Positions 21,430-37,448 of a stretch of DNA of 64,000 bases are shown one piece after another (the first letter of the stretch is position 1; each line of letters begins with the position of its first letter). The DNA comes from Robertkochia aurantiaca (GTDB lineage: Bacteria > Bacteroidota > Bacteroidia > Flavobacteriales > Flavobacteriaceae): NCBI RefSeq assembly GCF_020166495.1, contig NZ_JAINZS010000003.1:1-64000 (forward strand), in the 5' to 3' direction. The notes below the pieces were generated by a model, which saw only the letters and a program-made list of their open reading frames with translations, was not told the DNA's origin and did not search any database. A program made the position numbers and the translations under genes.

Positions 21430-21459
21430 TTGTATATAATATTTAAATTGTTAATTTTG
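21430..21459 (+). promoter_or_regulatory. Promoter of the MerR/B12 regulator
   Basis: TTG (21430-21432), 19 nt, TAATTTTG (21452-21459). The predicted RNA start (about 21464) lies after the first in-frame ATG at 21430, which excludes that codon as the start. A GTTTA half-site overlaps the -7 box. Confidence 0.65.
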
Positions 21460-21480
21460 TTTAAATGTTATATGAAAAGA

Positions 21481-22380
21481 ATGAACAATGTAAAGGTTAA
21501 TTTTAGCATTAAAGACCTTGAGAATCTGACTGGTATCAAGGCTCATACCATACGAATCTGGGAAAAAAGATATAACCTTCTGTCGCCAAACCGAACAGAT
21601 ACGAACATTCGTTATTATTCGCTGAGCAGCCTGCAGAAATTGCTAAATATCACGCTTCTTTACAACAACGGGTATAAGATCTCCAAGATCGCAAAGATAC
21701 CGGATGAAAAGATCCCGGTATTGGTCAGAGAAATCGTAGCTGAGAACAGCGTAAAAAATCACGCTATAAATGCCTTTAAACTGGCCATGATCAATTTCGA
21801 TCAAAGCCTGTTCTTCAATACATATAACGGATTGTTGGCAGAAAGGTCATTCAGGGAGATTTTCTACGAAGTATTCATTCCCCTCCTGAATGAATTGGGG
21901 CTGTTATGGCAAACCGATACCATTTCACCTTCTCATGAACATTTTATTACCAGCCTGATCAAACAAAAGATCCTGATCAATACCGAAAAACTCCAGGCCG
22001 CAGAACCCACAAATCACGAGAAAAAATTTGTGTTGTTCCTGCCTGAAAACGAGATCCATGAAATTGGTTTGCTTTACCTGAATTACGAGATCATCCTCAG
22101 GGGTTATCATTCTATCTACCTGGGGCAAACCGTGCCTTTAGACAGCCTGGTAGATATCATCAAATATCATGATAAAATCACCTTCCTGTCTTATTTCACC
22201 GTAAGTCCTCCGGCTGAAGAAGTAGAGAGTTATATAGAAAATTTCAAGACTATGGTCAATAAGAACCATCAGAACGAACTCTGGATTCTAGGCAAGCAGG
22301 TGATTTCCAATGAGTTGAATAATCTGAATGGAGAAGTAAGGGTTTTCCAGTCCATCGAAGAGGTTGTTAAAGAATTATAA
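21481..22380 (+). CDS. MerR-family regulator with cobalamin-binding domain (CarH/LitR-like)
   Basis: Likely B12-dependent repressor of the adjacent carotenoid genes. N-terminal MerR winged helix (FSIKDLENLTGIKAHTIRIW, RYYSLSSLQK), then the B12-binding helical cap with W-x9-EH (Trp 143, Glu 153, His 154) and a Rossmann-like domain with E-x-H-x-x-G (EIHEIG, His 193), the cobalt-ligand motif. In Thermus CarH the Trp is followed by a His that ligates cobalt after illumination; here it is Gln (LWQTD), so light sensing may differ. 299 residues from ATG 21481; ATG 21472 is also possible. The next gene, crtI, starts 52 nt downstream. Confidence 0.88.
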   Translation: MNNVKVNFSIKDLENLTGIKAHTIRIWEKRYNLLSPNRTDTNIRYYSLSSLQKLLNITLLYNNGYKISKIAKIPDEKIPVLVREIVAENSVKNHAINAFKLAMINFDQSLFFNTYNGLLAERSFREIFYEVFIPLLNELGLLWQTDTISPSHEHFITSLIKQKILINTEKLQAAEPTNHEKKFVLFLPENEIHEIGLLYLNYEIILRGYHSIYLGQTVPLDSLVDIIKYHDKITFLSYFTVSPPAEEVESYIENFKTMVNKNHQNELWILGKQVISNELNNLNGEVRVFQSIEEVVKEL

Positions 22381-22403: not shown

Positions 22404-22431
22404 GTTTAACTTTTGACTATATTTGTTAAAC
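22404..22431 (+). promoter_or_regulatory. Candidate CarH-type operator over the crtI promoter
   Basis: Perfect inverted repeat GTTTAAC-N14-GTTAAAC (28 bp) overlapping a -7 box TATATTTG (22418-22425). It ends 1 nt before the crtI ATG, so the crtI mRNA would be nearly leaderless. The -33 TTG (22402-22404) is only 13 nt from the -7 box. A repeat with the same arm spacing lies upstream of the fasciclin gene. Confidence 0.6.
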
Positions 22432-22432
22432 G

Positions 22433-23896
22433 ATGAACAAAAAAGTAATTATAATAGGCTCCGGTTTTTCTGCTCTTGCAGCTTCCTGCTATCTCGCACA
22501 ACAGGGACATTCGGTACATATTTTTGAAAAGAATAATACTGTTGGAGGTCGGGCCCGGCAATTGAAAAAAGAAGGGTTCACATTCGATATCGGACCAACC
22601 TGGTACTGGATGCCTGATGTTTTTGAGCGATTTTTCGAAGACTTCGGCAAACACCCTTCAGACTACTATGCCCTTCAGAAACTGAATCCCGCCTACCAGG
22701 TATATTTTGGAAAGAACGATTCAGTTACCATAGGTGATACCCTAGATAAAATATGTGAGGCTTTTGAAGAGGAAGAAAAAGGAAGTGCTGTTAAACTGAG
22801 AAAATTCATCAGTGAAGCAGAAGACAATTACGAAATAGCCATCAAAGACCTTGTTTACAGGCCGGGGGTTTCTCCTCTTGAATTGGTTACCCCCCAAACC
22901 ATCAAGAAGATCGGTGCATTTTTCAGCACAATTAAAAAGGAGGTGAGAAAAGAGTTTAACAATAAAAAACTCATTCACATCCTGGAGTTCCCAGTCTTAT
23001 TTCTCGGCGCAAAACCGGGTGATACTCCTGCGTTTTACAACTTCATGAACTATGCTGACTTCGGAATGGGCACCTGGCACCCTGAAAACGGAATGTACAG
23101 CGTAGTTGAAGGCATTGCGGCCCTGGCAATAGACCTGGGCGTAAAAATCCATACGGATATGCCGGTGGAAAAAATACTCGTTGAGAACGGAAAGCTTACC
23201 GGCGTTAAAGTTAAGGGCGAAATACACCAGGCAGACATTGTCTTGAGCGGGGCCGATTATCATCATTCAGAAAGTTTGCTCGACAAGAAATACAGAGGAT
23301 ATTCAGAGTCTTACTGGGAAAGAAAAACCTTTGCTCCTTCTTCTCTGTTGTTTTATGTCGGATTTGATAAGAAACTTGAAAATGTAGCGCATCATACGCT
23401 CTTCTTTGATGTCGATTTTGATGCGCATGCCGAAGCGATCTATGACGATCCCAGGTGGCCTGAAGAACCTTTATTCTATGCCAGTTTCCCTTCGAAAACC
23501 GACAAAACCATCGCTCCGGAAGGTTGTGAGGCAGGAATTTTCCTGATCCCCCTGGCCCCCGGAATTACCGACACTCCCGAACTCAGAGAGCGATATTTCG
23601 AACTGATAATGAGTCGTTTTGAGAAACTAACCGAACAAAAAGTAAAAAATAACGTTATATTTAAAGAAAGCTTTTGCGTAAACGATTTCATAGAAGCCTA
23701 TAATTCCTATAAAGGTAATGCCTACGGAATGGCGAATACACTACTGCAAACCGCTTTTTTACGACCAAAACTTAAAAGCAGGAAGGTAGACAACCTGTTT
23801 TTTACCGGTCAGCTTACCGTACCCGGACCAGGGGTACCACCATCACTCATTTCAGGAAAATTAGTGGCTGAGCTGATTAAAAAACATAATACCTGA
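22433..23896 (+). CDS. crtI: Phytoene desaturase
   Basis: FAD enzyme converting phytoene to lycopene by four desaturations. The 487 residues start with the dinucleotide motif IGSGFSALAASCYLAQQG, then the FDIGPTWYWMPDVFERFF block that marks CrtI, and end in the FAD motif FTGQLTVPGPGVPPSLISG. First gene of crtI-crtB-crtZ-crtD-cruF with gaps of 3, 12, 2 and -4 nt. Together with the second desaturase at 25204 it suggests separate C40 desaturation steps. Confidence 0.94.
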   Translation: MNKKVIIIGSGFSALAASCYLAQQGHSVHIFEKNNTVGGRARQLKKEGFTFDIGPTWYWMPDVFERFFEDFGKHPSDYYALQKLNPAYQVYFGKNDSVTIGDTLDKICEAFEEEEKGSAVKLRKFISEAEDNYEIAIKDLVYRPGVSPLELVTPQTIKKIGAFFSTIKKEVRKEFNNKKLIHILEFPVLFLGAKPGDTPAFYNFMNYADFGMGTWHPENGMYSVVEGIAALAIDLGVKIHTDMPVEKILVENGKLTGVKVKGEIHQADIVLSGADYHHSESLLDKKYRGYSESYWERKTFAPSSLLFYVGFDKKLENVAHHTLFFDVDFDAHAEAIYDDPRWPEEPLFYASFPSKTDKTIAPEGCEAGIFLIPLAPGITDTPELRERYFELIMSRFEKLTEQKVKNNVIFKESFCVNDFIEAYNSYKGNAYGMANTLLQTAFLRPKLKSRKVDNLFFTGQLTVPGPGVPPSLISGKLVAELIKKHNT

Positions 23897-23899
23897 ACC

Positions 23900-24739
23900 A
23901 TGAAAACTATTTTCGACCAAGTCTCTTACCAATGCAGCAGGAATGTTACCATCTCCTACAGCACCTCCTTTTCCCTTGCGGTAAAAATGCTGGCCCCTTC
24001 TATCAGGCAGGACATCTATAACATTTATGGCTTCGTTCGCTTCGCAGATGAAATAGTCGACACCTTTCACGACTTTGACAAAGCCAGCCTTTTCGACGAT
24101 TTTGAGCGTCAGCTTCACGATGCGCTTGAAAACGGTATCAGTCTAAATCCGGTTTTAAACTCCTTTCAACATACGGTAAACCGCTATCAAATTGACCGTG
24201 ACCTGATTGATTCCTTCATGAACAGCATGCGTCTGGATCTTAATAAAAAGGTTTATAGTACACACGAAGAATATAAGGAATATATCTACGGTTCGGCCGA
24301 TGTGGTAGGCTTGATGTGCCTGCAGGTATTTGTCAAAGCCGATAAGGAAAAATACGAAGCATTGAAAGCGCCTGCCATGGCACTTGGCTCTGCTTTTCAA
24401 AAGGTGAATTTTCTCAGAGACCTGAAGGCCGATTATGATGAATTAAACAGGACTTATTTTCCCGGCACCAACCTGGATAAACTTGATGAAGCATCGAAGA
24501 TCAAAATCGTAAAAGAAATCGAAGATGATTTTGCAAAGGGTTATGCCGGTATAAAGGAACTGCCTGTTGAAGCCCGTTTCGGGGTATATACGGCATACCG
24601 TTATTACAGCAAACTGCTTCAAAAACTCAAGAACACCCCTCCTTTGGAAATCAAAAATGCTCGTATAAGAGTTCCCAACTATCAAAAATTTGGACTCTTA
24701 GCAAGATCTTATGTAAATTACCGCCTGAATCTTCTGTAA
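23900..24739 (+). CDS. crtB: Phytoene synthase
   Basis: Condenses two geranylgeranyl diphosphates to phytoene. The 279 residues carry both Asp-rich motifs: VRFADEIVDTFHDFD near residue 50 and the second DLKADYDELNRTYFP, plus the FQKVNFLRD lead-in and SADVVGLMC. Three nt after crtI. Squalene synthases share this fold, but the operon and the motifs favour CrtB. Confidence 0.95.
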   Translation: MKTIFDQVSYQCSRNVTISYSTSFSLAVKMLAPSIRQDIYNIYGFVRFADEIVDTFHDFDKASLFDDFERQLHDALENGISLNPVLNSFQHTVNRYQIDRDLIDSFMNSMRLDLNKKVYSTHEEYKEYIYGSADVVGLMCLQVFVKADKEKYEALKAPAMALGSAFQKVNFLRDLKADYDELNRTYFPGTNLDKLDEASKIKIVKEIEDDFAKGYAGIKELPVEARFGVYTAYRYYSKLLQKLKNTPPLEIKNARIRVPNYQKFGLLARSYVNYRLNLL

Positions 24740-24751
24740 GAAACCCGTAGG

Positions 24752-27331
<2,580 letters not shown>

Positions 27332-27335
<4 letters not shown>

Positions 27336-28030
27336 AAAGGCAAAGGTTGGCCTCTCAGAGTTCCTTTTGAGCGGTAGGGTTGAAACCGGGAGAACAATTC
27401 CTCTTTATACCAGTCTAACTTGCGGGTATACCCAATGGCTTTCACATGTTCATGACTTTTATAAGCGAATGATCGCAAAGCGTCTTCATCAGTCCATATG
27501 CTGAAGGTTGCCATCTGAGTAACCGGCACTTCCCCAATACCCATGGTATAAAGCAATCCTTCGGCATCTACGAGGGGTTTTTGAGAGGTCGGCACATAAT
27601 TCCAGAATCTTCTCAGGTACCTCTTTTTGATAGTTGCACGCGTAATAGCAGCGATATAAGGATTATCCGGACTTATATCAGCATGCGGTTTAAAGGGTAT
27701 TTCTCCGTCCCATAATCCTTTTGCTTTAACATTTTTCATGTAGATGACCCCGATCTCTGCAGCTTGTTTACGATACTTTTTCATGAGAGAGGCATAATCA
27801 AAGAAAACATCTGCATACCGCTCATCATCCCAAACCTGTAACAAGGCGTAGGTATTCCAGTCAGGCCATGGATTGAAATTCTTCTTTCCGCTACCCATGA
27901 GTTTATAGAATGTACAACCGGGAACCTGCCGCAGGGAAGTATGTGCAAACTGCATCATCAAAAACGCCCATAATTTTGAAGAAGCAGAAGTGTAACTAAA
28001 AACAGTGAGGGTTGTGACCTGTTTCATCAT
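27332..28030 (-). CDS. CrtA-like (spheroidene monooxygenase family) protein
   Basis: 232 residues resembling the CrtA ketolase family: FMMQFAHTSLRQVPGCTFYKLMGSG, WPDWNTYALLQVWDDERYADVF and the end WTDEDALRSFAYKSHEHV. In purple bacteria CrtA adds 2-keto groups to acyclic carotenoids, often next to a 1-methoxy group; here it could modify the hydroxylated end made by CruF/CrtD. It is transcribed from the other strand, behind tlpA (ATGA overlap), so its regulation is separate from the crt operon. The ATG at 28030 is chosen over the upstream open frame for the same overlap. Confidence 0.75.
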
Positions 28031-28593
28031 CGTTGATTTACCAAACTGTCGAGCAAATGCTTTACCGATTCTGAATCCCATTTAGCTGAACCGGTCTTTT
28101 CAATCACAATATTTCCCTTCCTGTCGACCAGATAAGTCGCAGGTATACTTCTGGAATACAATTGACCGGGAATCTCTGTTCTGCTGAAGTAAACAGGGAG
28201 GTCGTAAGAATTATCATTCATGAAACGGCTCACCTTCTCCCTTTCATCATTGGCTACAAAAAGAAACTGCACCTTATCACCGAACTCGTTGTATAAATTC
28301 TGCAGGGCAGGCATTTCAGCGATACAAGGCGGACACCAGGTGGCCCAAAGGTTGATTAATATCACTTCCCCCTTGAGATCATGAAACTCCTGTTTTGTTC
28401 CTTCGAGCCCCACTAAAGACCACTCATAATTATTCAGCTTCTCTTGTTCTTCCGGCGATTCAACTCCGGGACTAAACGCGATAAGACGGTTTACATATAC
28501 CTTAATCGTAGTACCCAGGGGGGTAAACAAAATAATGATAAGAAGGGCGATCAATGCTAGATTACCCAGTTTATCCCATTTTTTTTTCTGCAT
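28027..28593 (-). CDS. TlpA-like thiol-disulfide oxidoreductase
   Basis: 188 residues: an N-terminal membrane anchor (LGNLALIALLIIILFTPLG), then a thioredoxin-fold domain of the TlpA/ResA class with WATWCPPCIAEMPAL (WCPPC active site) and the GQLYSRSIPATYLVDRKG cis-Pro region. Probably reduces disulfides of exported proteins in the periplasm. ATG at 28593 is chosen; it directly abuts the T-run of a hairpin. Overlaps the crtA-like start by ATGA. Confidence 0.88.
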   Translation of the reverse strand: MQKKKWDKLGNLALIALLIIILFTPLGTTIKVYVNRLIAFSPGVESPEEQEKLNNYEWSLVGLEGTKQEFHDLKGEVILINLWATWCPPCIAEMPALQNLYNEFGDKVQFLFVANDEREKVSRFMNDNSYDLPVYFSRTEIPGQLYSRSIPATYLVDRKGNIVIEKTGSAKWDSESVKHLLDSLVNQR

Positions 28594-28633
28594 AAAAAAA
28601 GTGCATTTCCTCTTACGAAAATACACTTTTTTA
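28594..28633 (-). terminator. Terminator whose T-tract abuts the tlpA start codon
   Basis: On the reverse strand: AAAAAAGTGTATTT, loop, AAATGCACTTTTTTT, then ATG. The hairpin closes the preceding lipoprotein gene. The T-tract meets the next ATG without a spacer. Confidence 0.75.
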
Positions 28634-28686
28634 GCGTGGTTCCCTGCTTTCAAACGGGGATACCTTTCGCAACCACAAGATCTTAT

Positions 28687-29445
28687 CTAAGGCTCAATAC
28701 GATTTACTGTTATCGAATTCGACAGATCAAAACAACCTTGCAGATCAGCAGCATTCATACCTGCTTCAGCACCGCTAAGCCCATCTTCAAATCGCAGATA
28801 CCAGATCAGACAGACACCGGGACCGGCCTCATCAAAATTAACCCCTTCGACCGCTTCAAGTGTCGGTGGCAAACCCAGTATGTTTCCCTGATCATCAGTG
28901 ATCACCCAGGTACTGTTTGATCCTGAGATCTCAGAATCGTCAAGGGTAATTCCGCTCACAAAATCAGCTTCACCATCAACGAAAAACTCAAAAGGACCGC
29001 CGGAGATTGTTCCGGCCTCGGGTTGATTTCGCTGTACATCGATCGAATTGGAAAGATCAAAGTTTCCTTCAATGTCATTCGCATTCATACCAACTTCCGC
29101 TCCACTTATCTCTCCTTCATATCTCAGATACCAAATGAGACAAAGGCCGGGGCCGGCATCGTCGAAATTCACTGCCTCCAATGCCTCCATGGTCGGGGGC
29201 AAACCCAGAATACTGCCCTGGTCATCAGTGATTACCCAGGTCGCATTCATCCCCATGGCATCAGAGCTGTTGACAGAAATTCCATTAACAAAATCCGGAT
29301 CCCCATCTATACAAAAAGAAAACGGACCTCCGCTTATCGTACCGGCATTGGCAATTATATCGGTTGAATCGTCATCATTATCACAGGCCTGCAACAGGCC
29401 GAGGCACATAAGTATACCCAATGATTTTAAAAGTGTGGTTTTCAT
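28687..29445 (-). CDS. Lipoprotein with two tandem copies of an about 110-residue domain
   Basis: I do not recognise a named function. Signal and lipobox MKTTLLKSLGILMCLGLLQAC (Cys 21) are followed by DNDDD. Residues about 34-142 and 144-250 are two copies of the same unit: AGTISGGPF start, NATWVITDDQGSILGLPPT versus NSTWVITDDQGNILGLPPT, and AGPGLCLIWYLRY versus AGPGVCLIWYLRF, each ending DLSNSI. As I recall, similar repeats occur in large flavobacterial surface proteins. Likely outer-membrane or surface bound. About 60 nt downstream of a Crp/Fnr regulator. Confidence 0.82.
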   Translation of the reverse strand: MKTTLLKSLGILMCLGLLQACDNDDDSTDIIANAGTISGGPFSFCIDGDPDFVNGISVNSSDAMGMNATWVITDDQGSILGLPPTMEALEAVNFDDAGPGLCLIWYLRYEGEISGAEVGMNANDIEGNFDLSNSIDVQRNQPEAGTISGGPFEFFVDGEADFVSGITLDDSEISGSNSTWVITDDQGNILGLPPTLEAVEGVNFDEAGPGVCLIWYLRFEDGLSGAEAGMNAADLQGCFDLSNSITVNRIEP

Positions 29446-29509
29446 CGCTGTTTTGGTTTTAAAAGATTACAGGGGTAAATTACCTCAGCGATTTATAATT
29501 AAATGTCAG

Positions 29510-30184
29510 CTAGTTTACATTAAGCGGAGATTTCAGCAACCGAATTTCCTGTCTTGAAAAATCTATCATTCCCGCCTCCCTCAATTCATTCATAAGGGTG
29601 TTCAAAGTCTGACGGGAAGTTCCTATCAGTGAGGCGATATCTTTCTGGGTATAGGGATGCCTGATAAGGCGGATTCCATCATTTTCGTTTCCGTACTCTT
29701 TGAACAACTCGTCGATAAATTCCAATAAACGCGTTCTTGTATCTTTGAAAAGCAACAGCCTGAGTCTGCGCTCCAGCTTCCGGTAACGGTACCCGATAAA
29801 TTTATAGATCTTCAGACTGAAGCTTTCGTCATCTCTCATCATCTGCTGCAAAGATTCAACTGAAACACTGCAAATGCGGGTATTTTTGGTTACCGATTGC
29901 GCAAACTCGTTCCTGGCTTCTCCATCCAGCAACGCCTTTTCCCCAAAAATTTCACCTCGGGTAAGTATGGCTTTCACGATCTCTTCTCCCTCCTCGGTAT
30001 AATACCCGATCCTGATCTTGCCGCTTTCAACAAGATAAACCGTTCTGGCGAGATCCTTTTCAAAATAGATATAGTCGTTCTTCGAACAATCAATCATCTT
30101 GTGGCATTCACGAAAAGCGGTGTATTTATGCGGACATAGAATCTGGAAGAGGTCTACTTCCTGAAAAAACCACAGAGCACTCAT
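29510..30184 (-). CDS. Crp/Fnr-family transcription regulator
   Basis: 224 residues: N-terminal cyclic-nucleotide-binding fold (YLVESGKIRIGYYTEEGEE, GEIFGEKALLDGEARNEFAQSV) and a C-terminal HTH_Crp (YTQKDIASLIGTSRQTLNTLMNELREAG). The four-cysteine iron-sulfur motif of Fnr is not present; there are only scattered cysteines (Cys 16, 28, 33). The effector is unknown. It stands between the aconitase gene and the duplicated-domain lipoprotein. Confidence 0.9.
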   Translation of the reverse strand: MSALWFFQEVDLFQILCPHKYTAFRECHKMIDCSKNDYIYFEKDLARTVYLVESGKIRIGYYTEEGEEIVKAILTRGEIFGEKALLDGEARNEFAQSVTKNTRICSVSVESLQQMMRDDESFSLKIYKFIGYRYRKLERRLRLLLFKDTRTRLLEFIDELFKEYGNENDGIRLIRHPYTQKDIASLIGTSRQTLNTLMNELREAGMIDFSRQEIRLLKSPLNVN

Positions 30185-30244
30185 TTGGAAGAATTTTTGG
30201 TTGATCGATCAGGCATTTGGTCGCGATCTGCTCCTGGCACTTAC

Positions 30245-30273
30245 AAAAAAACTCCCGCTATTGCGGGAGTTTT
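30245..30273 (-). terminator. Terminator of the aconitase gene
   Basis: AAACTCCCGC-tatt-GCGGGAGTTT hairpin with A/T runs on both sides, about 30 nt past the acn stop. Confidence 0.9.
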
Positions 30274-30303
30274 TGATATATATTCAACTGACTATGAGAT
30301 AGA

Positions 30304-32574
30304 TCAGGCGTTCTGTCTCTTGATCAGGTTCAGGGCAGAACCGGCCTTAAACCAGGCTATCTGACCTTCATTGTAGGAATGATTTACCTTGATGGTATCT
30401 TTGCTTCCGTCTGCATGAACCAATTCGATGGTCAATGGTTTATCAGGAGCAAATGACTCCAGGTCAACGAAGTTAAAAGTATCATCTTCCTGAATCTTGT
30501 CATAATCTGCCTCATTGGCGAATGTTAACGCGAGCATTCCCTGCTTCTTCAGGTTGGTCTCGTGAATACGTGCAAAAGATTTAACCAGCACAGCCTTCAC
30601 ACCCAGGTGTCGGGGCTGCATTGCTGCATGCTCCCTTGAAGAACCTTCACCGTAATTATGGTCACCCACAACTACCGTAGGAATACCTTTGGCTTTATAC
30701 TCCCTTTGAACATCCGGCACACCTCCGTATTCACCTGTAAGCTGGCTCTTTACGAAGTTGGTCTTCTGATTAAATGCATTTACAGCACCGATCAGGGTAT
30801 TGTTGGCAATATTATCGAGGTGACCTCTGAATCTCAGCCACGGACCAGCCATTGAAATGTGGTCAGTTGTACACTTACCATCAGCTTTGATCAGCAGCTT
30901 TGCCCCTGTAATGTTCTTACCATCCCATGGCTCAAAAGGTTCGAGCAATTGCAAACGCTCTGAATCTTCAGCTACGATTACATCTACCCCACTACCGTCT
31001 TTGGCCGGAGCAACATAGCCGGCATCTTCAACGGCAAATCCTTCCGGTGGTAATTCATAACCTCTTGGTTCGTCAAGCATCACTTCTTCTCCGTCTTCGT
31101 TGATCAGCTTATCTGTAAGCGGATTGAAATCAAGTCGTCCGGCAATGGCAATAGCCGTAACCAGTTCAGGAGATCCCACGAACGCCAGGGTATTCGGGTT
31201 ACCGTCTGCACGCTTGGCGAAATTTCGGTTAAAAGAGTGTACGATAGTATTTCGGTCCTGCTCTTTGGCATCACCTCCGTAACGATCCCACATTCCTATA
31301 CACGGTCCGCACGCGTTAGCGAAAACAGTAGCCCCGATATTATTGAAGGTATCGATAAACCCATCACGCTCTATGGTAAAGCGAACCTGCTCAGACCCCG
31401 GAGTGATGGTGAAATTTGATTTTGTCTTTAACTTCTTGTCTGCAACCTGTTGTGCCAGTGATGCAGCACGCGAGATATCTTCGTACGAGGAGTTCGTACA
31501 TGAACCGATCAGTCCGTACTCAACTTTCAGCGGCCAGTCGTTTTCTTTGGCAGCCTCTCCCATTTTCGAGATCGGGGTAGCCAGGTCTGGCGTAAAAGGT
31601 CCGTTCAGGTGAGGCTCCAGCTCTGAAAGATTGATCTCGATTACCTCATCGAAATATTGCTTCGGATTCGCATACACCTCAGGATCTGCTGTAAGATATT
31701 CTTTTACTTCATTAGCTGCGTCAGCCACATCTGCACGGTCGGTGGCTCTCAGATAACGATCCATCGATTCGTCGTAACCAAAAGTAGAAGTGGTAGCTCC
31801 CACTTCTGCTCCCATATTACAGATCGTTCCTTTACCGGTACATGACATAGATCGGGCACCTTCACCAAAGTATTCAATAATAGCTCCGGTTCCACCTTTT
31901 ACGGTAAGAATACCGGCCACTTTCAGAATCACATCTTTAGGAGCGGTCCATCCCGATAGCTTTCCGGTAAGTTTCACACCGATAAGCTTAGGAAACTTAA
32001 GTTCCCAGGGCATTCCGGCCATCACATCAACCGCATCAGCACCACCTACACCGATAGCAACCATTCCAAGTCCTCCTGCATTTACCGTATGAGAGTCGGT
32101 ACCGATCATCATTCCTCCCGGGAAGGCATAATTCTCGAGTACTACCTGGTGAATAATTCCTGCTCCGGGCTTCCAGAATCCTATGCCATATTTGTTTGAT
32201 ACTGATTCCAAAAAGTCGAATACCTCATTACTGGTTTCATTAGCACGCTTCAGATCGGCATCAGCACCGACTTTAGCCTGAATGAGGTGATCACAATGTA
32301 CTGTAGTTGGTACAGCTACCTTTGGTTTCCCGGCATGCATGAACTGCAGCAGTGCCATCTGAGCGGTAGCATCCTGACACGCGATACGGTCAGGCGTGAA
32401 TTCAACGTAGTCTTTACCCCTGGTATAAGCTTCTGTAGGCATACCATCCCACAAATGCGAATACAATATTTTTTCGGATAAAGTCAAAGGCTTTCCAGTA
32501 AGCTCACGTGCCTTGTCAACACGTTCGGCCATACGGGAATACACCCCTTTTATCATATCAATATCAAAAGCCAT
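30304..32574 (-). CDS. acn: Aconitate hydratase, mitochondrial type
   Basis: Converts citrate to isocitrate in the TCA cycle using a [4Fe-4S] cluster. The 756 residues follow the mitochondrial aconitase layout, distinct from bacterial AcnA and Acn[22 protein letters not shown] and the cluster cysteines in [11 protein letters not shown] and [12 protein letters not shown] are intact. The swivel domain has [17 protein letters not shown] and [10 protein letters not shown]. The size and the DSHT motif fit the family. Confidence 0.96.
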
Positions 32575-32793
32575 ATTAACTGTTTATTAGATTTTTTTAG
32601 AAGTCCTGCGAAAATACGAAAATCCAAACAGTTATTAAAGTTTTTGACAAAACAATGGGTATGGACCGGATTATTGAAAAGAAAGAAAAATCAGGCAATA
32701 TAAATTAGCAATTCAGCAAAACTGAACAGATAATATTTATAAAAACATCAATTATTATACCCGGGATCTATTTTTCAGAAAGTGAACTGAGCG

Positions 32794-33747
32794 TCAGAAA
32801 AGATCCTCGACCAGCTGATCGACCGTCACTCCTTCTGCTTCAGCCTTGTAGTTCTTAATGACCCGGTGTCTGAGAACTCCCTTGGCCACCTGCTGCACAT
32901 CTTCATTATCGGGTGAGTACTTTCCGCGAACCAGTGCATTAGCCTTGGCTGCCAGTATCAGATTCTGTGAAGCTCTCGGTCCTGCGCCCCAATCCACGTA
33001 ATTATTGATCGTATCGGTAGCCATCTCAGTGCCGGGCCGTGTTTTGGCCACCAGAGATACTGCATAATTCACCACATTGTCGGCTACGGGCACCCTTCTT
33101 ACCAGGTGTTGTATGCTTACTATCTCATCGGCTGTGAAAAGCGGCGACACCTTGTTTTCTATATCATCGGTAGTGGCTTTCACCACAGCCACTTCCTCTT
33201 CAAAGCTCGGATAACTCAGTTCGATAGCAAACATGAACCGGTCAAGCTGAGCTTCGGGTAACGGGTAGGTTCCCTCCTGCTCGATAGGGTTCTGTGTAGC
33301 CAGTACGAAATAGGGAAGGCTCAACCTGTAGTGCTGACCTGCTACGGTCACGGCACGCTCCTGCATGGCCTCCAGCAAAGCAGCCTGGGTTTTGGGAGGC
33401 GTACGGTTGATCTCATCTGCCAGGATGATATTTGAAAAGACCGGCCCCTTGATAAATTTAAAATTACGGTTCTGATCCAGGATCTCACTACCCAATATAT
33501 CAGAAGGCATCAGGTCAGGGGTGAACTGAATGCGTTTAAAGTCAAGACCCAGCGCCTGAGCGATGGTATTCACCATAAGGGTCTTGGCCAGGCCGGGCAC
33601 ACCTATGAGAAGGGAATGCCCGCCTGAATAAATAGAAAGCAGGATCTGGTCTATGACCCGATCCTGCCCAATAATTACTTTTGCGATTTCTTTTTTTAGC
33701 GCCTGATGTTTTTCAACCAGATTTTTTACTGCAGCTACATCTGACAT
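32794..33747 (-). CDS. MoxR-family AAA ATPase
   Basis: 317 residues, AAA_3 type: Walker A IGVPGLAKTLMV, Walker B IILADEINRTPP, sensor 1 VLATQNPIEQEGTYPLPEAQ, arginine-finger AQLDRFMF. MoxR proteins help metal insertion or assembly, usually with DUF58 and VWA proteins; neither is adjacent here (nothing follows before acn). It lies 6 nt after the surA gene, so it is the last gene of the SurA group. Confidence 0.92.
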   Translation of the reverse strand: MSDVAAVKNLVEKHQALKKEIAKVIIGQDRVIDQILLSIYSGGHSLLIGVPGLAKTLMVNTIAQALGLDFKRIQFTPDLMPSDILGSEILDQNRNFKFIKGPVFSNIILADEINRTPPKTQAALLEAMQERAVTVAGQHYRLSLPYFVLATQNPIEQEGTYPLPEAQLDRFMFAIELSYPSFEEEVAVVKATTDDIENKVSPLFTADEIVSIQHLVRRVPVADNVVNYAVSLVAKTRPGTEMATDTINNYVDWGAGPRASQNLILAAKANALVRGKYSPDNEDVQQVAKGVLRHRVIKNYKAEAEGVTVDQLVEDLF

Positions 33748-33753
33748 TAAGTC

Positions 33754-35208
33754 CTATTTTTTAAGCCAGTTGTTTTTAAAGTCACAATCCCGGCTGTCTG
33801 AATTTACGCTAATATAAGTATCTTTTATGTTTTCGTCCATCCATTTGGCTATTTCCCTGAACTGCTTTTCTTTCAAAGCAAGTTCTTTGATCTTCACATA
33901 ATCCTGAACATAGTCTGCCTGGTGGGCATCGTAGCGGTTGTTCACCTTGATAAGCTTGTACACCACTCCGGTACGCGTCTCTTCAACCAGAGGCTGAGAT
34001 ATCTCATCACCTTTCAGGTTCGATACCTGGCTGTAAAGTACAGGGTCCATTTTAGTCAATTCAAAACGGGTGTCCATATTATCAGGATTTCTCAGCACCC
34101 CTCCGTCGAAACGGGTTTCTTTCTGGTCAGAAAAATTACGGGCTGCCTGTGAAAATGTAAACTCACCTTCAATCACCTTGGTGCGAATACTGTCAAGTTC
34201 AGCTTTTGCTTCATTCAGAGATTCCTGAGAGATCTCGGGGCGCAACAAAATGTGACGCACGTCACGCTCTTGTCCGCGTATACGTTCTACAGTTAGAATA
34301 TGATATCCGAATTCTGATTTAAAGGGTTTGGAAACTTCTCCCTCCTTCAGGGAAAAAGCTACATCTTTAAATTCCTGTACAAAGTTTGAATTCTTGTTGA
34401 TAGAATAAACACCATTGTTCTGGTTTTTACCCGGGTCTTCTGAATACAATGTCTGCTTGATGGCAAAACTTGAACCGTTCTCAATGATATCACTTCTGTA
34501 GGCATTCAGCTTATCGATGGTCTTTTGAATCTCCTCTTCGGTAGGCTTGGGCTCCTTTACGATCTGTGCGATCTCAACCTCATCACCGAAATAGGGTTTT
34601 TCTTCATCATCCAGCTTGTTGTACCACTGGCGCACTTCCTCAGGGGTGATCTCTACTGCCTCAACGATCTTGGCCTGCATACGCTCAGCCAGCATACGCT
34701 CTTTAATGATCTCATTGAGCTCTTCCCGGAATTCCTTCTCGTCATCCTTCTTGTAATATTGGAGAAGCTTTTCCATAGATCCTACCTGATTAACCAGGAA
34801 AGCGATCTGCCTCTCTACATATGATGTCACTTCGGCATCGGCCACCTCCACACTATCCTGAATGGCCATGTGTGCATACAGTTTGTCTTCCATCAATTTA
34901 CCCAATAACTGGCAACGCGATATATTCGCGGTTGATACTCCCTGGGTCTTCAGGTCGATGAACTGCTTATCGATATCAGATTCGAGTATGACATAATCTC
35001 CTACTACCGCAGCGACCCCGTCTACTTTGATCTTCTTAAAGGTGCCGGCAGAATCGGCCTTTTGCACCTTCTCAGCCATGCTGTCTTCAGACATCAGCGT
35101 ATCGGGTGTATTCTCAGCAGAGCTGAGCATGGCAGTTTCCTGTTGGGCATGTACAAGCCCCGCCGTCATCATTAAAATCGTGGTTAAAGCGTAAAAAAAT
35201 CTCTTCAT
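33754..35208 (-). CDS. SurA-type periplasmic prolyl isomerase
   Basis: Chaperone for outer-membrane proteins. 484 residues: signal peptide (FYALTTILMMTAGLVHAQ), N-terminal SurA helical core (about 70-190, KVDGVAAVVGDYVILESDID), and two parvulin domains, the first about 200-315 (NNGVYSI, FVQEFKDVAFSLKEGEVSKPF) and the second about 318-430 (RDVRHILLRPEISQESL). A SurA-like lipoprotein precedes it and a MoxR ATPase follows. Confidence 0.92.
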   Translation of the reverse strand: MKRFFYALTTILMMTAGLVHAQQETAMLSSAENTPDTLMSEDSMAEKVQKADSAGTFKKIKVDGVAAVVGDYVILESDIDKQFIDLKTQGVSTANISRCQLLGKLMEDKLYAHMAIQDSVEVADAEVTSYVERQIAFLVNQVGSMEKLLQYYKKDDEKEFREELNEIIKERMLAERMQAKIVEAVEITPEEVRQWYNKLDDEEKPYFGDEVEIAQIVKEPKPTEEEIQKTIDKLNAYRSDIIENGSSFAIKQTLYSEDPGKNQNNGVYSINKNSNFVQEFKDVAFSLKEGEVSKPFKSEFGYHILTVERIRGQERDVRHILLRPEISQESLNEAKAELDSIRTKVIEGEFTFSQAARNFSDQKETRFDGGVLRNPDNMDTRFELTKMDPVLYSQVSNLKGDEISQPLVEETRTGVVYKLIKVNNRYDAHQADYVQDYVKIKELALKEKQFREIAKWMDENIKDTYISVNSDSRDCDFKNNWLKK

Positions 35209-35258
35209 TAAGCTCTGTTGTTTTTATTTAGCTGCATTGCTGCAATAACTATTCCTTT

Positions 35259-36131
35259 CTATTTTTTTGGATCATAAACCTGGAAATCATTATTCCGGGT
35301 TGCTTCGTCGAGCAATTCCTTCTCAAGGGTTCTCAGGAATTCCAACTTCCTCTTATTGAGAATGATCTTTCTTACCGTCGGTTCAACATACGACAAGGGA
35401 GCTGTATTATTCCTGCTAAGCACTTCATTAACAGCGACCAAATATACCCCTAAAGAATCGGATAGCTCAAAAAATTGTGATTTTTTTAAATACTCATCCT
35501 TGTTATCGGTATTGATCACGGGGATCTTTTGTATCACTTCAGAGGTGCGTACCCAGACCGAGTCGTTAAAGGAATAAAACTTGAATTTAAGAGCCATTTC
35601 CCGCAAAGCCTCCTGGTCTTCAGGTGAAAAATTCCTGAATCGCTCCCTTACGGTCTGCAGGTTCGTAAAGTCAGGACTCACACTGAGATAGCGAAGTTTC
35701 ACCAGATCTTCATTCAGCTTGAAGTTCTCTTTGTTCTCTTCGTAAAAACGCTCAAGCTCTTCCTGTGCGATGGCGGTATCCATCGACCGGGCCACCAGCG
35801 CCTCCTTATAAGCATTTATATAAAGGTCTGCACGGTACTGAGCCACCAGCTCTTCGAATTGCTGTTGTTTGTTTTCAGAGAGATTGATCCTGGCCCGATC
35901 CAGCAACAATTGCTTGCGTGCCCAGTCGTTGATATAATTGTTTACCAGTACGGCACTGTCACCACTGCTTATCCCTCCATTCAACAATTTATCGATCTCT
36001 TCTTTTACGAGATAATTCTCGCCTACCCTTGCTACCGGGTCTTTTATTTCCTGCTGATTAAAGTAACTGCAAGAGCTAAAAGAAATTACAATCAGTAAGC
36101 ATATAAGGAATTTAAAAGATCGCATTCTCAT
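35259..36131 (-). CDS. SurA-like lipoprotein, PPIase domain not evident
   Basis: 290 residues with lipobox signal LICLLIVISFSSCSYF. The mature protein opens like SurA (DPVARVGENYLVKEEIDKLL) and has a helical chaperone core, but I do not see the canonical parvulin HILL/GGxLG signatures later, so it may be a chaperone without isomerase activity. Its start is chosen at the ATG at 36131, which begins the signal; 36125 is also possible. First gene of the group with surA (51 nt) and moxR. Confidence 0.8.
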   Translation of the reverse strand: MRMRSFKFLICLLIVISFSSCSYFNQQEIKDPVARVGENYLVKEEIDKLLNGGISSGDSAVLVNNYINDWARKQLLLDRARINLSENKQQQFEELVAQYRADLYINAYKEALVARSMDTAIAQEELERFYEENKENFKLNEDLVKLRYLSVSPDFTNLQTVRERFRNFSPEDQEALREMALKFKFYSFNDSVWVRTSEVIQKIPVINTDNKDEYLKKSQFFELSDSLGVYLVAVNEVLSRNNTAPLSYVEPTVRKIILNKRKLEFLRTLEKELLDEATRNNDFQVYDPKK

Positions 36132-36282
36132 TACGTATGGTATCATCATAATCCTGGCCTTACCGGCATTCGGGCAAAAATAACAAATAAGAGCATATTT
36201 TCAAGCCAACAACCGTTAAAGGCAATAACGAACAATCGCTGTTTATATTTTTCGTAAATTCTGCATTAACAAACAGATACTT

Positions 36283-36741
36283 ATGAAGTATACAGCAGAG
36301 GTGATCATCAGGGCTCCACGGGCAGAAGTGATCGAAAAACTTGACAACACAGACAACCTGAAACACTGGCAGCCCGGCTTCAAAAAGTACACCCTCCTAT
36401 CGGGAAAGCCGGGAGAAACCGGGGCCGAAGCCATGATCGAACTCAAAATGGGCGGGAAGGATATGAAAATGAAGGAAACCATCATCTATAAGAATCTGCC
36501 GGAAGCGATTCACGCAACCTACGAGACCAATGATGTTATCAATACACAGGAGAACTTCTTTAAGGAGATCGACAAGGAAACAACCCACTGGCTTGCTGTG
36601 AATGAATTCAGGTTTAATTCCCTGCTGATGAAATTGGTCGGGTTTCTTTTCCCGGGAAGCTTTAAAAAGCAAAGCCTTTCATTTATGACTCACTTCAAGG
36701 ATTTTGTGGAGAAGGGACATTCCCTTGCTGATAAGACATAA
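36283..36741 (+). CDS. SRPBCC-family (START-like) protein
   Basis: 152 residues with the polyketide-cyclase/START fold pattern: YTAEVIIRAPRAEVIEKLD at the N terminus, the W-containing HWQPGFKKYTLLSG, repeated beta strands, and a C-terminal helix (KQSLSFMTHFKDFVEKG). Proteins of this fold bind small hydrophobic ligands; the ligand here is unknown. Monocistronic and convergent with the fasciclin gene. Confidence 0.87.
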   Translation: MKYTAEVIIRAPRAEVIEKLDNTDNLKHWQPGFKKYTLLSGKPGETGAEAMIELKMGGKDMKMKETIIYKNLPEAIHATYETNDVINTQENFFKEIDKETTHWLAVNEFRFNSLLMKLVGFLFPGSFKKQSLSFMTHFKDFVEKGHSLADKT

Positions 36742-36766
36742 AAAAACACCGCGAAAGCGGTGTTTT
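36740..36766. terminator. Bidirectional terminator
   Basis: AAAACACCGC-gaaa-GCGGTGTTTT hairpin between the convergent SRPBCC and fasciclin genes. Confidence 0.92.
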
Positions 36767-36789
36767 TGCATTTATTGATTTTTGTGTGA

Positions 36790-37347
36790 TTATGGCATTA
36801 CCACCTGATCAATAGCATGTATTACCCCGTTAGAAGCATCAACATCGGTCATGATCACCGTTGAACTGTTCCCGTTAGCATCGGTAAGAATAACATTTCC
36901 GTTTTCGATTGAAGCGGTAAGCTGATCTCCCTGAACAGTGGTTATGGTAAATTTCCCATTATTGCTGTTTATTGCATCCAGGACGTCGCTGGCCATGAAT
37001 TCTCCTGATACCACGTGGTAGGTAAGAATAGAAGTCAATTTATCTTTATTCTCCGGTTTTACCAGATCGTCCAGCGTTCCAGCAGGTAATTTGTTAAAAG
37101 CATCATTGGTCGGCGCAAATACCGTAAAAGGTCCCTCACTGTTAAGCGTTTCAACAAGGCCGGCAGCCTTTACTGCGGTAACCAACGTACTGAAGTTGTC
37201 ATTACCTGCGGCCACTCCGACAATAGTGGGTTCCTGAATTGATTCAACATTTTCTGAAATGTTGTCATTTTTCTGGCTTTCGAAGGCATAGATACCGAGT
37301 ACCAGCACTGCCAAAGCAGTAAATTTGAATAGATTCTTGATTTTCAT
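36790..37347 (-). CDS. Fasciclin-domain (FAS1) protein
   Basis: 185 residues: N-terminal hydrophobic export segment (FKFTALAVLVLGIYAF) without a lipobox, then one complete FAS1 domain (about 45-185) with FSTLVTAVKAAGLVETL, PFTVFAPTNDAFNKLP, LTYHVVSGEF and the end GVIHAIDQVVMP. FAS1 domains mediate adhesion. In flavobacteria such genes often accompany carotenoid or photolyase genes. Here a 28-bp repeat (37404-37431) like the crtI operator lies upstream, suggesting shared control. Confidence 0.92.
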   Translation of the reverse strand: MKIKNLFKFTALAVLVLGIYAFESQKNDNISENVESIQEPTIVGVAAGNDNFSTLVTAVKAAGLVETLNSEGPFTVFAPTNDAFNKLPAGTLDDLVKPENKDKLTSILTYHVVSGEFMASDVLDAINSNNGKFTITTVQGDQLTASIENGNVILTDANGNSSTVIMTDVDASNGVIHAIDQVVMP

Positions 37348-37403
37348 AGTTTTTTAATTTTAAATAAATGTATGAAAATCAATCTGTTAAAAATTATTAT
37401 TTT

Positions 37404-37431
37404 GTTTAAACTTTAGTTAAAAAAACTAAAC
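37404..37431 (-). promoter_or_regulatory. Candidate CarH-type operator upstream of the fasciclin gene
   Basis: 28-bp inverted repeat with outer arms GTTTA/TAAAC spaced exactly as in the crtI site; on both strands the arms are preceded by TTT. It begins 57 nt before the ATG on the coding strand. Confidence 0.5.
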
Positions 37432-37448
37432 AAAAATAATCAAGTCAT

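Follow-up and report, generated by a model that had tools for sequence, protein, structure and literature searches.

CarH, the adenosylcobalamin (AdoCbl)-dependent, light-responsive repressor of carotenoid (crt) genes in Thermus thermophilus, Bacillus megaterium and myxobacteria, acts on operators built of tandem 11-bp direct repeats with the core TnnACA (nnnnTnnACAn), and for the CarA operator inverted repeats were proposed first and direct repeats read later (PMC8156234 and PMC9304148, in the sections consulted). The targets of LitR/PplR of Pseudomonas, a class II LitR, include photolyase/cryptochrome, folE, short-chain dehydrogenase and FAD-dependent oxidoreductase genes; these LitRs are thought not to bind B12, P. 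mendocina LitR works with a LOV protein, and proteorhodopsin and FAS1 are not named for the Pseudomonas set in the consulted sections of that source (PMC9758184). A MerR-family gene before crtI is on record in a proteorhodopsin flavobacterium (PMC4732338) and in Nonlabens (PMC11855829), the consulted sections of both records giving no operator, no regulon and no link between regulator and proteorhodopsin; the main text of PMC5932025, on proteorhodopsin distribution, is without mention of MerR, fasciclin or promoter. Our literature searches turned up no paper on the light regulon described here, and light switching of flavobacterial proteorhodopsin is not known from the literature searched to have a named regulator. 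The element in question is a 28-bp inverted repeat in Robertkochia aurantiaca, on the first 64,000 nucleotides of contig NZ_JAINZS010000003.1 (assembly GCF_020166495.1; the window hereafter), where it precedes the carotenoid gene crtI and a fasciclin (FAS1) gene and, in degenerate form, overlaps the start of the merR-type gene next to crtI.

We understand this repeat, extended to 30 bp in most sites (TGTTTAA-N16-TTAAACA), as an operator recognized by the CarH-like MerR/B12 regulator whose gene lies beside crtI and which would act as an AdoCbl-dependent dark repressor released by light; we put the probability of this at about 0.82. What computation shows is that the motif exists with a defined geometry, that it is conserved and depends on the presence of the regulator, which targets it has and where on promoters it lies, and that the protein has the CarH residues and predicted fold; from this we infer physical binding, dependence on B12 and light, and repression as the sign of control. 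The features concerned are:

22404..22431, + strand: operator 1, crtI promoter, GTTTAACTTTTGACTATATTTGTTAAAC, a perfect GTTTAAC-N14-GTTAAAC
21459..21486, + strand: operator 2, putative merR autoregulatory site, GTTTAAATGTTATATGAAAAGAATGAAC; its second arm coincides with the start, ATG AAC
37404..37431, - strand: operator 3, fasciclin, GTTTAAACTTTAGTTAAAAAAACTAAAC; coding strand GTTTAG-N16-TTAAAC, 11/12 of the core
22418..22425, + strand: crtI -7 promoter box TATATTTG, register +14 of the operator
21452..21459, + strand: merR -7 box TAATTTTG, register -7; box end falls on the upstream arm
37431..37438, - strand: fasciclin candidate -7 box TATTTTTG, register -7 as at merR; box end on the upstream arm
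21481..22380, + strand: CarH-like MerR/B12-binding regulator; open reading frame (ORF) from ATG at 21472, conserved start 21481; Pfam MerR_1 and B12-binding_2
22433..23896, + strand: crtI, phytoene desaturase, first gene of the crt operon; NF058655 above cut-off
36790..37347, - strand: single-domain fasciclin (FAS1) protein; Pfam PF02469, E 5e-37

At crtI the 7-bp arms match without exception over a total of 28 bp, the operator ends one base before the crtI ATG (22433), and its downstream arm begins at the last base of the -7 box; the fasciclin site has matching arms of 5 bp and an identical span. GTTTA-N18-TAAAC thus occurs twice in the window, compared to a mean of 0.08 in 100 dinucleotide shuffles, none of which contained two or more. 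The merR site deviates from the core at 2 of 12 arm bases and, taken alone, does not exceed chance within the window (9 matches at up to two mismatches vs 4.36 expected, with 2 of 100 shuffles reaching 9), so that its support must come from conservation in relatives. TAnnTTTG is the -7 promoter consensus, and a box of this form is present at all three window sites, each in a register recurrent among relatives. The regulator probably starts at ATG 21481 (MNNVKVNF), inside the operator, rather than at 21472 or at the upstream TTG 21430. The first-pass annotation had described the crtI repeat overlapping the -7 box and the fasciclin repeat of equal span, and both are confirmed from the sequence, the pair exceeding the shuffle expectation; its half-site on the regulator's own promoter is borne out by conserved geometry in relatives, described below, and not by window statistics.

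The 3.43-Mb genome of R. aurantiaca contains GTTTA-N18-TAAAC in 10 places and GTTTAA-N16-TTAAAC in 7, compared to 2 and 0 for the reversed patterns that served as control. A regulator relative at E <= 1e-30 was found in 120 of 149 genomes of the family, 110 of them with a close ortholog and 10 with only a distant homolog, leaving 29 with none. The exact palindrome numbers 502 vs 218 for the control in the first group, 26 vs 25 in the second and 40 vs 51 in the third (Mann-Whitney on site-minus-control differences, close ortholog vs none, p 3.6e-7, shared ancestry ignored). The contrast was replicated on 192 genomes from other families of the class, with 223 sites vs 151 in the 112 that have MerR and 53 vs 101 in the 80 that lack it (p 7.5e-8, shared ancestry again ignored). 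Occurrence at random frequency genome-wide, which the first-pass annotation had named as grounds for giving up the idea, is therefore not what was found: there is an excess, and it is tied to the presence of the regulator. Chance or AT-richness as the origin of the repeat is ruled out by the reversed control, by this regulator dependence and by the spacer profile.

That profile was taken on loci fetched by protein rather than by site, for palindromes with spacers of 4-40. Spacer 16 accounts for 45 of 55 palindromes at merR loci, where spacer 17 occurs in 4, spacer 15 in 0 and any other length in at most 2, and for 10 of 10 at proteorhodopsin loci. Among the named merR loci, which are the best 80 of more from a scan of genome contigs, spacer 16 occurs in 16 and spacer 17 in 10, showing that a 29-bp form exists; the reversed control in the same 80 sums to 18 over all spacers, with at most 4 at a single one.

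Conservation was examined at the merR locus in 90 of the 120 genomes with a MerR match (L133, at a contig end, scored as a miss). A site matching at least 11/12 lies directly after merR in 52 of the 90 (43 perfect), the reversed control in none. Only 2 of the 52 have crtI within 40 bp of merR, so the site goes with a separate crtI promoter; where the two genes stand close enough to suggest a single operon, crtI mostly lacks a site of its own (crtI is within 40 bp at 26 of the 38 loci without one). At the merR start, GTTTA-N17-[A/G]TGAAC is found in 55 of 87 loci, and the half-site with ATGAAC in 62 of the best 80 named loci. Since ATGAAC doubles as the codons of a conserved Met-Asn start, the second merR arm is ambiguous alone, and the evidence at merR is the fixed spacing: the -7 box lies 22 from the ATG in 54 of 61 measurable loci (26 of 87 were not measurable). 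The distance from -7 box to crtI start varies from 7 to 12 across 36 loci, and the constant 22 is therefore not a general promoter need. The full GTTTA-N18-TAAAC is present in only 20 of the best 80 named loci, probably due to the closeness of merR and crtI in the nearest genera.

The other promoters were likewise sampled by protein. For fasciclin the best match was taken in 30 of the 50 genomes with one, and a site of at least 11/12 within 200 nucleotides (nt) was found at 12 of 26 loci in regulator-bearing genomes (control 0/30). Proteorhodopsin genes, 30 in all, have the site in 17 of 24 genomes with MerR (control 0/30). The repeat is thus conserved in orthologous promoters, a point on which the earlier proposal had been made to depend. 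As a separate observation, five proteorhodopsin strains with genomes of 1.6-2.2 Mb (L064, L065, L066, L068, L072) encode a MerR of 46-54% identity and are without the operator, and other small genomes (L057, L063, L070) retain it.

Among the 198 distinct sites that have a gene downstream, boxes of the form TAnnTTTG cluster at offsets -7, +13/14 and +34/35 from the site start, about 21 bp apart, which is the arm-to-arm distance. A box stands at these offsets in 100 of the 198, with at most 5 at shifts unrelated to 0 or 21; excluding crtI and merR, TAnnTTT[G/A] is so placed in 66 of 144 sites vs 0-14 at shifts 2 to 12. About half of the sites have an exact -7 box covered by or just beside the operator, the other half no exact box. 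Judged from sequence, such placement fits repression by occlusion, and the window sites follow it with +14 at crtI and -7 at merR and fasciclin. A pseudo-palindrome in or over the promoter, as ordinary dimeric MerR operators have, is present here over a 28-30 bp span; the usual MerR sites are shorter. Given AT-rich flanks and -7 boxes that run into the arms, the repeat might be regarded as a by-product of such boxes (TTTG then TTAAAC) and no operator at all, but this is scarcely credible when spacer 16 is prominent and spacer 15 absent, the upstream arm at crtI begins 14 bp ahead of the box, the boxes occur in three different registers, and the palindrome exceeds its reversed control with the regulator and not without it.

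The fasciclin promoters raise the question of the sign of control at individual targets. In five of them, picked by eye and including that of the window (L311, L313, L316, L317, L318), a -7-like box follows 31-32 nt downstream of the site, the window representative being TACATTTA at 31 nt. For an operator upstream of its promoter this is an activator's position, the geometry could mean activation, and the MerR family includes activators (PMC8156234, sections consulted). The window fasciclin promoter has, on the other side, also the TATTTTTG box in the merR register, and register 58-60, to which the distant box belongs, is a minor peak among all sites; activation at part of the promoters is considered unlikely, if still worth keeping in view.

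Turning to the protein, the regulator next to crtI is a MerR/cobalamin protein, as originally described: Pfam finds MerR_1 and B12-binding_2, and the PDB entries closest in sequence, LitR and CarH of T. thermophilus, align with it at the B12 residues. An AlphaFold2 model (mean pLDDT, the predicted local confidence score, 84.8; 29-sequence alignment) has full-length T. thermophilus CarH as its PDB matches of ranks 1-12 over nearly the whole length, at the low identity of ~18% in the Foldseek alignment. The two-domain CarH layout, a MerR winged helix followed by a B12-binding helical bundle and Rossmann part, is predicted in full, the Rossmann part being visible by predicted fold only. W131, E141, H142 and H177 are named as key AdoCbl contacts in CarH (PMC11796333, sections consulted). 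Among 87 orthologs (of the 90 merR loci, three were dropped for an in-frame stop) the corresponding residues are kept as W146 in 87, E156 in 87, H157 in 81 and H196 in 87. A cobalamin adenosyltransferase (PF01923, G000:C7:256874), as needed for adenosylcobalamin from cobalamin, is encoded in the genome. Common with CarH are therefore the MerR and B12 domains, the Wx9EH motif, the lower-ligand histidine and the fold, as well as the crt neighbour, the half-site core and a site overlapping the promoter.

It is here that a different use of the same operator must be considered, namely that this regulator binds the palindrome and responds to another signal or partner instead of B12 and light, as CarA of Myxococcus or a class II LitR might. 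CarA binds without B12 (PMC9304148), and of the two B12-binding subdomains class II LitRs retain just one (PMC9758184; both in the sections consulted). The Pfam result on the regulator, with the helical B12-binding_2 but not the Rossmann part, has a similar look, and H157 (H142 of T. thermophilus CarH) is Arg in 6 of 87 orthologs, a change that might alter the light response. Yet W146, E156 and H196 never vary among the orthologs and H157 is largely retained, the match of the model to full-length CarH spans almost all of its length, the genome encodes the adenosyltransferase, and many of the targets are light genes. These findings make such a B12-independent regulator improbable.

The DNA element agrees with the assignment to the CarH group in its half-site and departs from it in layout. 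Each arm reads GTTAAAC(A), and TnnACA is found in 373 of 396 arms, where T, A and C are fixed by the selection of the sites and the final A is free; the crtI site of the window departs from this, its downstream arm being followed by G. As far as sequence can tell, the same CarH recognition element is used inverted, 21 bp centre to centre. Whereas CarH operators are direct repeats, one inverted repeat is used here, and this layout would need a different placement of the DNA-binding domains.

In the R. aurantiaca genome, a site stands before each of the following: crtI and the fasciclin gene; a Bac_rhodopsin (Pfam) gene, which we take to be proteorhodopsin and whose product shows the proton-pump residues D-T-E (read by eye), with blh (TIGR03753) divergent; msrA followed by folE; a TetR_C_23 regulator gene followed by an ABC1/UbiB-like kinase gene; and a flavin reductase gene. 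The site at proteorhodopsin brings this gene into the regulon. Another site precedes htpG (C1:280847; name by eye), divergent from that TetR gene; because htpG is divergent from TetR in three of the four other loci with a nearby site, this site may serve TetR alone. Sites before a TonB-type receptor gene (C3:6962; name by eye) and a 146-aa unknown/membrane gene (C7:95909) are excluded from the firm regulon, and the site C1:372777, which lies inside a gene, was dismissed as an operator and taken as chance. Downstream of crtI the window continues with:

23900..24739, + strand: crtB-like, phytoene/squalene synthase family; matches below cut-off only
24752..25201, + strand: FA_hydroxylase family, presumed crtZ-like by position
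25204..26676, + strand: crtD, 1-hydroxycarotenoid 3,4-desaturase; NF042421 above cut-off
26673..27335, + strand: cruF-like carotenoid hydratase; matches below cut-off

Convergent with this operon is a spheroidene monooxygenase-like gene (CrtA family, below cut-off; 27332-28081, - strand), and a Crp/Fnr-family regulator gene, a possible second regulator, lies near the cluster (29510-30184, - strand). The window FAS1 protein has, by the look of its N-terminus, a signal peptide (judged by eye) and would be exported.

The target set was extended in ten genomes selected because they have many sites or carry proteorhodopsin, in which 75 of 77 sites were read and the reversed pattern occurs 8 times. 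An ORF start follows within 250 bp downstream at 69 of the 75, and 6 lie inside long ORFs. FAS1 adjoins the site in 12 loci, TetR_C_23 in 8, crtI in 5, HtpG in 4 (divergent from TetR in 3), proteorhodopsin in 3, blh in 3, Porph_ging/GLPGLI-like exported proteins in 3, unknowns of 142-143 aa in 3 and of 155-165 aa in 3, CIA30 in 2 and DUF2805 in 2. Single cases by the site are photolyase, FolE, MsrA, flavin reductase, merR, PTPS, SDR and an FAD amine oxidase with photolyase on its other side. Another five genomes were surveyed at 27 of their 37 sites, a selection of ours that set aside 2 merR-crtI sites counted elsewhere and 8 that looked unlikely. The picture was the same: FAS1, TetR and proteorhodopsin/blh again follow the site, as do the 142-aa unknown, a GHMP kinase and a protein of the fatty-acid-desaturase family. 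The kinds of target that the first-pass annotation suggested looking for in flavobacterial relatives (carotenoid, photolyase, fasciclin and MerR-B12 genes) are all represented, photolyase singly. The small regulon it proposed, of regulator, crt operon and fasciclin, stands in its members but not in its size, for proteorhodopsin/blh, folE/msrA, TetR-ABC1K and the relatives' photolyase belong as well; the idea is supported and was too modest. Target kinds named in the Pseudomonas LitR set, which is light-induced, are seen here at one or two sites each in relatives, and in R. aurantiaca itself as msrA-folE only.

Two families recur behind the operator as observations in their own right. The 142-143-aa family, for one member of which Pfam gave no match, is found at L142:11135-11560, L149:2026-2454 and L155:2026-2454 and in L156, L282, L303 and L310, in several genomes near the TetR_C_23 operon. 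Exported proteins of Porph_ging type (Pfam on one; presumably those called GLPGLI) occur in L144, L148, L154, L243, L260 and L305. Regarding FAS1, a link of this domain to carotenoids is shared with AstaP, an algal carotenoid-binding FAS1 protein, of which a cyanobacterial homolog failed to bind carotenoid (PMC10147662, sections consulted); carotenoid binding, known for the algal protein, is a conjecture for the bacterial FAS1 proteins considered here.

Beyond the family, merR homologs of 36-59% identity have a site of at least 11/12 at 14 of 24 loci (no control pattern alongside), six of the 14 from one genus. The ORF after the site looks like a sigma factor in 11 of 12 loci read (L354, L356-L361, L363, L365, L366, L370), all five of these ORFs submitted to Pfam have sigma-70 region 2 and 4 domains, and folE in L357 also carries a site. 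Among the genomes listed, the site is within 600 bp of merR in 15 of 23 that bear MerR, and 22 of 63 sites are so placed vs about 0.04 expected. LitR-LitS of Streptomyces and CarQ of Myxococcus represent light cascades to an extracytoplasmic function (ECF) sigma factor. The site between merR and an ECF-type sigma gene in non-flavobacterial Bacteroidota is common with these and suggests a light cascade; the window genome differs in that it lacks anything close to that sigma (26% identity at best), and its control appears direct. The likely history, judged from few families, is one in which merR feeds into a sigma cascade in other Bacteroidota and controls its targets directly in this family.

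These loci also bear on whether the operator belongs to some other co-occurring regulator, such as the TetR_C_23 or the Crp/Fnr protein. TetR_C_23 genes carry the site in their own promoters in many genomes, as an autoregulator would, and the Crp/Fnr gene lies close to the crt genes, but in the other Bacteroidota families the site lies beside merR with the sigma gene present and no TetR gene among the neighbours listed for 12 loci. In sequence the arms agree with the CarH element and differ from TTGAC, the half-site of Crp/Fnr proteins, and the spacing at the merR start is nearly fixed. Assignment to either protein is accordingly very unlikely, and the CarH-like regulator is retained as the owner of the site.

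Several results weigh against this understanding. In layout, the arms are inverted and 21 bp apart instead of tandem direct repeats, and the first A of AnnTnnACA is present in only 159 of 396 arms. In the protein, the NCBIfam CarH equivalog scores 61.7 bits, far below its 400-bit cut-off, which makes the regulator a divergent CarH relative, and H157 is replaced in the orthologs mentioned. It looks like a protein that works as CarH does, to judge from sequence and model, formal membership failing on operator layout and curated score. Thirty-eight of 90 merR loci have no 11/12 site directly after merR; crtI is at most 40 bp from merR in 26 of these, further off in 7 and missing from the stretch in 5. 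The site is absent at 14 of 26 fasciclin loci in regulator-bearing genomes and present at 1 of 4 in others, and 7 of 24 proteorhodopsin genes in MerR genomes are without it (L074 and L076 of these are partial matches). Conversely, 3 of 6 proteorhodopsin genes have it in genomes where no MerR was found; as these three genomes are incomplete (86%, 81%, 73%), their regulator may be missing from the assembly only. Outside the family, 10 of 24 merR loci lack the site, five of them from one genus, and the MerR-less genomes fall below the reversed control, an imperfect baseline to that extent. Finally, 20 of 75 sites have no recurrent or light-related neighbour in our reading, and the three photolyase/cryptochrome loci of R. 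aurantiaca carry no perfect site, one having an 11/12 site ~150 nt upstream.

Based on the collective evidence, the CarH-type model proposed at the outset holds as to motif conservation and regulator dependence, and its physical side can be sketched as follows. Two DNA-binding domains of the regulator would occupy TnnACA half-sites 21 bp, or two helical turns, apart, and so either span the -7 region of a target promoter or lie next to it. In the dark, the oligomer loaded with adenosylcobalamin would block RNA polymerase; in light, breakage of the Co-C bond would cause the oligomer to disassemble and the regulon to be expressed. For R. aurantiaca the regulon would comprise the regulator itself, the crt operon, proteorhodopsin, the FAS1 protein, msrA-folE, the TetR-ABC1 kinase operon and flavin reductase, with blh joining through the intergenic site common with proteorhodopsin, and relatives would add photolyase and others.

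Lastly, a broader proposition is put forward tentatively, at slightly less than even odds: that one CarH-type B12 photoreceptor directly switches proteorhodopsin, retinal/carotenoid synthesis, folate/pterin genes, DNA photorepair and secreted FAS1 proteins throughout the family by an inverted-repeat operator new for the class, that the FAS1 targets are carotenoid-binding or photoprotective, and that an ancestral merR-ECF-sigma cascade was replaced by direct control. For flavobacterial proteorhodopsin the analysis offers a candidate regulator together with a 30-bp operator, a list of targets and a rule for promoter position, presents the CarH DNA element in a geometry (inverted, 21 bp) unlike the described direct-repeat operators, and ties bacterial FAS1 proteins to the carotenoid and light response. 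Our understanding predicts that vitamin B12 status gates the phototrophy genes; if it is true and the host needs external cobalamin, proteorhodopsin expression would be tied to the supply of vitamin B12 as well as to light.

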